Origin: a virus
Virus record (IMG/VR): IMGVR_UViG_3300037245_003411
Span: 1 to 47,157 of that record
Length of the DNA stretch: 47,157 nt
Strand: one strand, 5' to 3'
The notes under the pieces are model-generated. The model had not been told where the DNA came from. It did no database searches and saw nothing but the letters and a program-made list of their open reading frames with translations. The first letter of the stretch is position 1; each line of letters starts with the position of its first letter. Below are positions 28,861 to 30,178 of the stretch, piece after piece. Position numbers and translations under genes: made by a program.

Positions 28861-29072
28861 AGATGACAGACTTACAGAGAAAGAAGTTATCCTCAAGAAG
28901 ATTCTTGACCGTTATATGGGCGTGTCTTGTCCTTACTTCCTGGGGTACTCTGAGTTTAATTGCAAATGTAACACATCCGTGGATGAGTGTTGTTATGCCT
29001 ATAATTGCTGGAATACCTGTAAGCTATGTAACAATCACTTCACTTAAAAAGAAAAAGGAAGGAGAAGAATGA
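28857..29072 (+). CDS. Holin candidate, two TM segments, 71 aa
   Basis: Two hydrophobic helices (about residues 16-37 and 42-60, joined by a short THPW turn) and a strongly basic/charged tail (SLKKKKEGEE) fit a class II holin. The start overlaps the previous stop (ATGA) and the end overlaps the spanin-like gene (ATGA), forming a coupled lysis cassette. Holin function is inferred from topology and position. Confidence 0.6.
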   Translation: MKMTDLQRKKLSSRRFLTVIWACLVLTSWGTLSLIANVTHPWMSVVMPIIAGIPVSYVTITSLKKKKEGEE

Positions 29073-29548
29073 AATGCTTAAAACTATTATTACCACTTTT
29101 CTTGTTGCTGGTATTATTTATGGCGCTGCCTGGTACTCTATTGGCAGAAACGACCTCGGAGAAATACGAACGAATTACGACGAATTTGACAGAACTTTAC
29201 AAGGAGTTCTCGGTGATAGCCGTGAACTCAGAACTGACTCTGATGGATTTGCAAGAGATATTACCGAAATTACAACAACAAGTAGAAGAATTAACAAAAG
29301 AAGTGGAACTATTAATGAAGGATTCATCATTCTTAATGGAGACTTCGGAGGAGTTCTTGTTAAAGTGGACCAACTTGAAGGCTGGAATAGACAATATCTC
29401 ATCGGGGTTAGAGATTTTGGAGATGAACTCTATAGCCTTAGACAAGTCAATAAAGAAAGCGGAGCTCAAGAGTAATATTGGATTAGGGATTTCTGGATTT
29501 AATCTTTTATTATTATTATTGATCTCTATATTCTTTGGAAATAAATAA
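29069..29548 (+). CDS. Spanin-like protein A (secreted, C-terminal TM), 159 aa
   Basis: Residues 1-26 form a signal peptide (LLLVLFMALPGTLLA|ET). Residues about 55-130 are coiled-coil, and the last about 25 (LLLLLLISIFFG) form a membrane anchor. It is encoded in frame 2 across the whole of gene B (29074-29475, frame 1). Codon choice is atypical (TTA/TTG/CTA, TCG, ACG), as expected for an overprinted frame. Both genes can use the same AGGAAGGAG. A spanin-type envelope fusion role is an inference from topology. Confidence 0.55.
   Translation: MKCLKLLLPLFLLLVLFMALPGTLLAETTSEKYERITTNLTELYKEFSVIAVNSELTLMDLQEILPKLQQQVEELTKEVELLMKDSSFLMETSEEFLLKWTNLKAGIDNISSGLEILEMNSIALDKSIKKAELKSNIGLGISGFNLLLLLLISIFFGNK
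29074..29475 (+). CDS. Spanin-like protein B (i-spanin type), nested, 133 aa
   Basis: One N-terminal transmembrane anchor (IITTFLVAGIIYGAAWYSIG, residues 4-23) is followed by a charged periplasmic domain, as in Rz-type inner-membrane spanins. Codon use (CTT, AGA, GGA, GAT) matches the rest of the genome, so this is probably the older of the two overlapping frames. The entire gene lies inside protein A's gene in another frame. The ATG is nine bases after AGGAAGGAG. Confidence 0.6.
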   Translation: MLKTIITTFLVAGIIYGAAWYSIGRNDLGEIRTNYDEFDRTLQGVLGDSRELRTDSDGFARDITEITTTSRRINKRSGTINEGFIILNGDFGGVLVKVDQLEGWNRQYLIGVRDFGDELYSLRQVNKESGAQE

Positions 29549-29549
29549 T

Positions 29550-29706
29550 TTGCACTGGCAGGATTCGAACCTGCAACGGTGACTAGCCGCCCAATTGTTA
29601 ATTACTGGCTATTATCTCTAACTTTACCAGTGAGTCGTTCTCTGTCTCGGCTATTAGAGTCATATACCGAGTTCAATGAGGTGTCTACCAATTTCACCAC
29701 AGTGCA
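29550..29706 (-). tRNA. Oversized tRNA-like element (Leu-type ends), possibly interrupted
   Basis: On the minus strand the first seven bases TGCACTG pair perfectly with the 3' CAGTGCA, followed by discriminator A. The T arm is perfect (GCAGG, loop TTCGAAT, CCTGC). The D region GTGAAATTGGTAGACAC is that of class II (Leu) tRNAs. Between D and T arms there are about 110 bases instead of about 45, with two hairpins (CTCGG/CCGAG and ACTGG/CCAGT), and I find no standard anticodon arm. Total 157 nt. It may be interrupted by an insert, degenerate, or a tRNA-like regulator. It lies at the 3' end of the early transcript. Confidence 0.6.
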
Positions 29707-29708
29707 CC

Positions 29709-29756
29709 GCCTGTCTGTGCTTTTACGTGGAACTATACTTACAGGCTTTCCCCACG
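29709..29756 (-). ncRNA. Candidate H-type pseudoknot upstream of tRNA-like element
   Basis: Two helices cross: GCCTGT (29709-29714) with ACAGGC (29741-29746), and CGTGG (29726-29730) with CCACG (29752-29756). They immediately precede the tRNA-like element on the minus strand. A pseudoknot directly 5' of a tRNA-like fold is uncommon; the pairs are short, so chance cannot be excluded. Confidence 0.3.
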
Positions 29757-29797
29757 ATTATAAAGTCCAGAGCCGAAGCGCGGGACTAAAAACCTAA

Positions 29798-30178
29798 TCA
29801 ATTTACAAAATCAATATCAGGTATAATGGCTTTTGGTTTAAAAATAACTCTGTAATGATATGCTGATACCTTTGCAGAATCAAGTTGTTCAACAAAAGGA
29901 AATACATTATCTGCTCTGCCTAAATAATGTTTTTTAAACTCATTCGGTCCAGTCTTAACCGTAACAACAAACTTATTGGTGAAAAACTCAACAGAACAAA
30001 ATCCTTCAATACTTAATATATATTGGTCTGTTATTCCATTGTAAAATACAACCCTTCTGTAGATCTCAAATTGATCCGCTGCCCTTGATAGATTTGAAGA
30101 AGCTACATCCGCATCTGTACATCCGAAAAATGAAAATACAATAATGATGCTTATGAAAATAAATATAATCTTTTTCAT
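29798..30178 (-). CDS. Phage beta-sandwich lipoprotein, 126 aa
   Basis: MKKIIFIFISIIIVFSFFGC is a lipoprotein signal with Cys at 20 and an unusual Phe-Phe before Gly-Cys. The mature part DADVASSNLSRAADQFEIYRRVVFYNGITDQYILSIEGFCSV is the signature of the phage beta-sandwich lipoprotein family, found in many phages and of unknown function, possibly superinfection exclusion. It is the last gene of the leftward transcript. GAGGG lies upstream of the start. Confidence 0.8.
   Translation of the reverse strand: MKKIIFIFISIIIVFSFFGCTDADVASSNLSRAADQFEIYRRVVFYNGITDQYILSIEGFCSVEFFTNKFVVTVKTGPNEFKKHYLGRADNVFPFVEQLDSAKVSAYHYRVIFKPKAIIPDIDFVN

Follow-up and report, generated by a model that had tools for sequence, protein, structure and literature searches.

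A phage tRNA-like element without an anticodon arm represents a widespread but unannotated class of tRNA-framed elements

Introduction

What kind of gene keeps both ends of a transfer RNA (tRNA) and replaces the decoding part between them? The question is raised by a short element on the minus strand of IMG/VR virus record IMGVR_UViG_3300037245_003411, a 47-kb phage record (47,157 nucleotides [nt]; the whole stretch is hereafter called the window) whose plus strand carries the terminase, portal, and tail genes and whose minus strand carries genes of replication type. An earlier note, made from this sequence alone, had placed a tRNA-like element at 29549-29757 and had offered an interrupted tRNA, an RNA decoy mimicking tRNA, or a broken gene as explanations. 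Here, we describe it as a real element, not a broken gene, that belongs to a widespread unannotated class, an identity that is well supported because the same layout recurs in many phages. Our favored interpretation, held with about even confidence, is that the sequence encodes a tRNA-framed phage RNA that does not decode and holds a variable domain.

A tRNA shell encloses a structured middle

The RNA gene runs from 29706 to 29550 on the minus strand and measures 157 nt including the discriminator A, so the earlier interval did contain the element, while its remainder up to 29757 is upstream sequence. All parts of the described shell, namely the perfect 7-base-pair (bp) acceptor, the class II D arm, the 5-bp T arm with its TTCGAAT loop, and the discriminator A, were confirmed in the sequence, as was the middle of about 110 bases (about 106 nt by our count) with two hairpins and no anticodon arm (Table 1). 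T8 and G9 stand between the acceptor and the D arm, and G9 could form a fourth D-arm pair with C27, just inside the next base, or with C26. Within or right after the two hairpins, TAATAGCC occurs exactly twice (29649-29656 and 29607-29614). The fold of the RNA is more stable than that of shuffled sequences (z-score of -3.1), and a strict scan of the window for the shell gave one match, compared with none in 300 dinucleotide-preserving shuffles.

Of the features that define the tRNA family (RF00005), the window RNA has the acceptor, the D arm, and the T arm; a 5-bp/7-nt anticodon arm, either contiguous or spliced, was not found at the standard setting. Rfam matched the T arm alone (E=4.9; 14.4 bits vs the RF00005 gathering threshold of 29 bits), and a conventional tRNA built from a different pairing was looked for and not found. 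ARAGORN at its default setting reported no tRNA anywhere in the window, and its intron mode (-i) returned a poor 'Val(aac), 74-nt intron' call on the element.

The combination of tRNA ends with a long insertion in place of the anticodon stem is also the topology of transfer-messenger RNA (tmRNA), and the middle does hold the 21-codon frame starting with the ATG at 29663 that the earlier note had pointed out. We nevertheless regard a miniature tmRNA-like RNA with a short tag frame as extremely improbable: across elements of this kind, ATG frames average 9.7 codons vs 11.2 in shuffles (ATG starts only), a D stem is present, and the window has no match to Rfam tmRNA at E<=1. A coding or tag function was rejected on the same lack of enrichment over shuffles.

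The shell recurs with covarying acceptors in other phages

Viral contigs were scanned for a T core lying 85-115 nt from a class II D arm, with the acceptor left free and ordinary tRNAs removed. Among 61 matches with distinct acceptors, 36 paired at all seven positions, compared with 0.8 on average and never more than 5 when the 3' strands were permuted. T8 was present in 53/53 and A73 in 45/53 of these elements (hereafter the TTCGA type), although neither was part of the search pattern. Helices ending 0-4 nt ahead of the T stem were enriched (mean score of 13.5 vs 11.05 in shuffles), and no motif shared across the middles was found. In some contigs, the ends AGTCAGG..CCTGACT are repeated with differing middles, and one 41-kb contig contains up to 13 matches to a single conserved T-arm/acceptor 3' end. 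The genes beside such shells are often phage genes. The window RNA shares the features of this class, i.e. a 7-bp acceptor, T8, GG in the D loop, and a T arm, with a middle within 23-160 nt in place of an anticodon arm.

This recurrence bears directly on the broken-gene explanation, by which the element would be a degenerate tRNA-Leu that lost its anticodon arm. The Leu-like D arm and A73 would fit such an origin, as would the ARAGORN result that the window phage has no other tRNA. On the other side, the shell is perfect, and in independent copies from unrelated phages, many compensatory changes have preserved the acceptor pairing; we regard degeneration as largely refuted and very improbable.

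A separate tRNA-like type was also encountered, with an anticodon-like arm whose loop reads YNGTCTC and a giant variable arm (L087 588-742, L156 518-672, L159 4199-4338, and L143 3170-3319). L087, L156, and L159 have ATATGGGTTGACCACAAA in common, and a tmRNA lies nearby in L087 and L156.

A sister type is present in cultured phages

A scan of bacterial genomes together with a second viral scan revealed a sister type in which the T loop reads TGCAAAT and the T stem has 6 bp, with AT directly ahead of the stem in 66/72 cases. Its acceptors pair 7/7 in 56 of the 72 distinct cases (permuted mean of 1.6, maximum of 6), and in the genome set, acceptor pairs 3-5 are formed in 28/28 with 4-6 pair types, compared with at most 21 in 500 shuffles. 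The shortest middle is 23 nt, and the shell is therefore independent of any particular insert.

A complete and unannotated shell of this type was found in the records of seven named phages (Leuconostoc phage Ln-9; Lactobacillus phages phiJL-1, ATCC 8014-B2, and Lenus; Lacticaseibacillus phage R24.2; and Enterococcus phages VEsP-1 and EFDG1), and Weissella phage WC29P3 also carries one. In ATCC 8014-B2 and Lenus, the same pair of tRNA-Arg genes brackets the element, and the shell and downstream flank are nearly identical, whereas the middles are not clearly similar. A nearly identical 205-nt element with sharp borders is present between unrelated flanks in VEsP-1 (39 kb) and EFDG1 (148 kb). Within Firmicutes, compensatory changes were observed inside related middles. 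Based on the exchange between 8014-B2 and Lenus, the shared copy in VEsP-1 and EFDG1, these compensatory changes, and the enriched helix ahead of the T stem, the middle is structured and replaceable as a unit.

The same exchanges could be read as the trace of a recombination cassette or attachment-site remnant, in which the shell supplies homologous sequence for exchange while the RNA itself is functionless. The sharp borders and swapped middles would suit this explanation, and the gene beside the window's element is annotated as a recombination directionality factor. An attP site, however, has only the 3' part of a tRNA, while here the element also includes the D arm and the 5' acceptor strand, and both halves pair; moreover, the differing acceptors covary, unlike an identical homology block. 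We consider the cassette quite improbable.

The TGCAAAT-type shell was also seen in eight Listeria species (L243, L261, L268, L273, L276, L281, L289, and L308), where the middle is well conserved. In L243, it lies downstream of an azlCD-like gene pair rather than beside phage genes and is possibly a chromosomal copy.

Splicing does not explain the missing anticodon arm

The interrupted-tRNA explanation states that the element is the precursor of an ordinary tRNA with a small intron in its anticodon arm. A scan that differed only in using a class I D arm served as the control, and anticodon arms spliced on paper were scored against expectation. A perfect spliced arm was obtained for 27 of 47 interrupted class I elements vs 0.18 expected, with insertions mostly after base 28, and at settings comparable to those for the window's class the count was 20/47 vs 0.1 expected; the splicing test therefore works. 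Applied to the window's class, it yielded 3/75 vs 1.7 expected, and 14 vs 7.2 at a relaxed setting. The sole relaxed reading of the window RNA is a weak Val(AAC) arm, which matches the ARAGORN intron call and is not credible in a class II frame, since Val is not a class II tRNA. Given these counts and this single reading, a spliced tRNA is unlikely for the window's class. Small introns in other phage tRNAs and the ARAGORN Val(aac) call do lend the precursor explanation some plausibility, as do L142 (8714-8858) and L192 (1815-1946), both interpretable as tRNA-Leu(UAA) in which 50-60 nt, opening with a 5-bp stem, separate bases 32 and 33 (in L192 by direct reading). A few class members, such as L142, may thus be intron-bearing Leu tRNAs, yet for the window RNA itself we give a precursor only a slender chance.

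The small introns of class I phage tRNAs constitute a separate and notable finding, and from their sequences they appear to be real in these other tRNAs. Insertions of about 44-75 nt were seen in the viral contigs L310, L317, L319, L343, L349, L352, L362, L367, L370, L372, and L383, below the size of known self-splicing introns. They include one motif group with GTTACTT near the 3' end (11 vs 0.3 expected) and a second with CAGCAR after a hairpin (8 vs 1.4 expected). The GTTACTT motif was found in 0/76 elements of the window's class, which further argues against an intron precursor.

Genomic context of the element

The element sits downstream of, and on the same strand as, a relative of phrog_478 (Table 1). 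Two other contigs with a phrog_478 relative have a shell close by: in L009, a 149-nt shell lies downstream on the same strand, and in L076, the shell is about 199 nt long. The pattern GATARTAG, common to the window and L009, was tried as a class feature and rejected, as it retrieved only the L009 contig and a tandem tRNA array. Nucleotide and protein searches with neighboring genes for close relatives returned distant phages only, and the portal protein led to two short contigs.

On the minus strand, the sequence directly upstream of the element (29709-29756) could form an H-type pseudoknot, pairing CGTGG (29752-29756) with CCACG (29726-29730) and GCCTGT (29741-29746) with ACAGGC (29709-29714). 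On the plus strand, two overlapping frames in different phases (29069-29548 and 29074-29475) are perhaps an overlapping spanin pair; the longer one had no PHROGs family match.

Table 1. Positions of the tRNA-like element, its parts, and the adjacent gene in the window
Feature	Position	Strand	Remarks
Whole tRNA-like RNA	29550..29706	-	157 nt, A73 at 29550; read from sequence
Acceptor 5' strand TGCACTG	29700..29706	-	7/7 Watson-Crick with 29551-29557
Acceptor 3' strand CAGTGCA	29551..29557	-	Partner of 29700-29706
Class II type D arm GTG-AAATTGGTAGA-CAC	29681..29697	-	GG = tRNA positions 18-19; same D arm in related shells
T arm GCAGG-TTCGAAT-CCTGC	29558..29574	-	5/5 pairs, canonical loop
Variable middle	29575..29680	-	About 106 nt, where the anticodon arm and variable loop would be; no 5-bp/7-nt anticodon arm
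Hairpin 1 CTCGG..CCGAG	29646..29671	-	In free minimum free energy (MFE) fold and cloverleaf-constrained fold
Hairpin 2 ACTGG..CCAGT	29604..29631	-	In free MFE fold and cloverleaf-constrained fold
Possible loop-loop pairing CTCTAA (29654-29659) / TTAGAG (29616-29621)	29616..29659	-	Candidate, direct sequence reading
Variable-arm-like hairpin CGG-CTAGTCA-CCG	29577..29589	-	Two bases ahead of the T arm
phrog_478 relative (labelled recombination directionality factor)	29798..30178	-	Upstream same-strand gene; PHROGs E=7e-48

A proposed role for the tRNA-framed RNA

Acceptor, D arm, and T arm together make a complete tRNA shell, and across phages other middles occupy the same shell under a strong pairing constraint. 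Some genomes hold several paralogues, and elements have been transferred between phages. These observations are consistent with a working model in which the RNA would be transcribed with the leftward operon and its ends cut by RNase P and the 3' tRNA-processing enzymes, perhaps with addition of CCA. Acceptor and elbow are enough for RNase P and 3' processing, and LeuRS (leucyl-tRNA synthetase) does not read the anticodon. The shell would then act as a processing and stability frame for the middle, which would be the working part and might bind a protein or RNA target that differs among phages. Such a phage-specific target would explain why constant shells hold replaced middles and why several paralogues occur per genome. 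Two further ideas were rejected: for antisense action on the phage itself, the longest match is 13 nt, while shuffles reach 14, and for mimicry of a host tRNA acceptor, five genomes yielded no tRNA-like 3' end of a host in which this acceptor occurs.

The main rival to this model holds that the shell itself is active as a decoy, its acceptor and elbow mimicking tRNA to occupy a tRNA-binding protein such as RNase P, EF-Tu, LeuRS or seryl-tRNA synthetase (SerRS), or a tRNA-targeting defense enzyme, with the middle varying through an arms race. A tRNA core unable to decode is what a decoy would need, and fast-changing middles with several paralogues per genome agree with it. So does the preference for A73 in the TTCGA type; A73 is a Leu identity base. 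In the TGCAAAT type, however, the discriminator is not constant (A 49, T 15, C 5, and G 3), which argues against obligatory charging and a strict charging role. A varied, structured middle, moreover, would go unexplained if the shell alone were the bait. We therefore judge the decoy to be unlikely, albeit the most serious competitor of the frame model.

Several observations weigh against a non-decoding, tRNA-framed RNA in the window. The letters of the D arm and T core were fixed in the scans, and no conservation of those parts is therefore claimed. In the free MFE fold of the window RNA (-47.5), the D arm is open, and constraining the RNA to a cloverleaf gives a fold that is 2.6 kcal/mol weaker. 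Searches yielded no relative that shares the middle of the window RNA, and neither a terminator nor a convincing promoter was found for the element. Finally, L002, which has the closest relative of the phrog_478 gene (82%), lacks an element at that place; the element is thus accessory.

Somewhat more tentatively than for the window RNA alone, we propose that these elements could represent a new and very widespread class of phage RNA, in which an anticodon-less tRNA shell serves as an interchangeable frame for fast-evolving domains, moved between phages as a unit and kept in several versions per genome. A literature search found the D-arm motif in no text and no paper on such RNAs, with subscription journals and preprints thinly covered, so that an earlier description is possible. 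If the proposal is true, one common kind of phage RNA escapes annotation tools, also in cultured phages of Lactobacillus, Leuconostoc, Weissella, and Enterococcus, which would offer tractable laboratory models for the role of non-decoding tRNA in infection, be it as a stable frame, a decoy, or a regulator. Likewise, T4 species 1 RNA, long without a function, would gain many analogues for comparison.

Comparison with known RNAs

GOLLD and ROOL are likewise large, structured phage RNAs that occur near tRNA genes and have no known function; they differ from the window's class in being 400-600 nt long, in having no tRNA shell, and in showing no similarity to it. The two kinds share some loci, as GOLLD or ROOL RNAs were seen near tRNA-like shells in some phage or prophage loci (L163 1293-1710, L271 3160-3769, and L292 2870-3493). 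The class I phage tRNAs with small introns resemble the window RNA in having tRNA ends about 70-100 nt apart; only in the former does paper splicing bring back a full anticodon arm. With class II tRNA, in particular tRNA-Leu, the window RNA has in common the D arm, the T arm, T8, G18G19, and A73 of the Leu type, but it has no anticodon arm, contiguous or spliced, and carries a 106-nt middle instead.

The nearest known analogue is T4 species 1 RNA (rnaC; NC_000866 70908-71046, 139 nt), which is expressed late, has been detected on a Northern blot, and is of unknown function (PMC9697503). Like the window RNA, it has a perfect T arm (CCGGG-TTCGAAT-CCCGG) with a hairpin just ahead of it, acceptor-like ends in which one A-U to G-C double change is seen among relatives, and no anticodon arm; its relative in Enterobacter phage EnC15 contains a wholly different middle. 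Unlike the window RNA, however, rnaC has two U.U mismatches in its acceptor and no canonical D arm was seen in it, and we therefore regard it as an analogue rather than a proven relative. It has no sequence homology to the window element, and the search with that element found no T4-like phage. In Enterobacter phage SonariX (L432), a feature annotated as tRNA-Met is a relative of T4 rnaC, and this annotation thus looks wrong. Finally, tmRNA likewise joins a tRNA acceptor and T arm to a long insertion for the anticodon stem, at about 350 nt vs 157 nt, whereas the window RNA has a D stem, no tag frame above chance, and no Rfam match. With T4 species 1 RNA and tmRNA, the replacement of the anticodon stem in a tRNA-like RNA is already known in principle.
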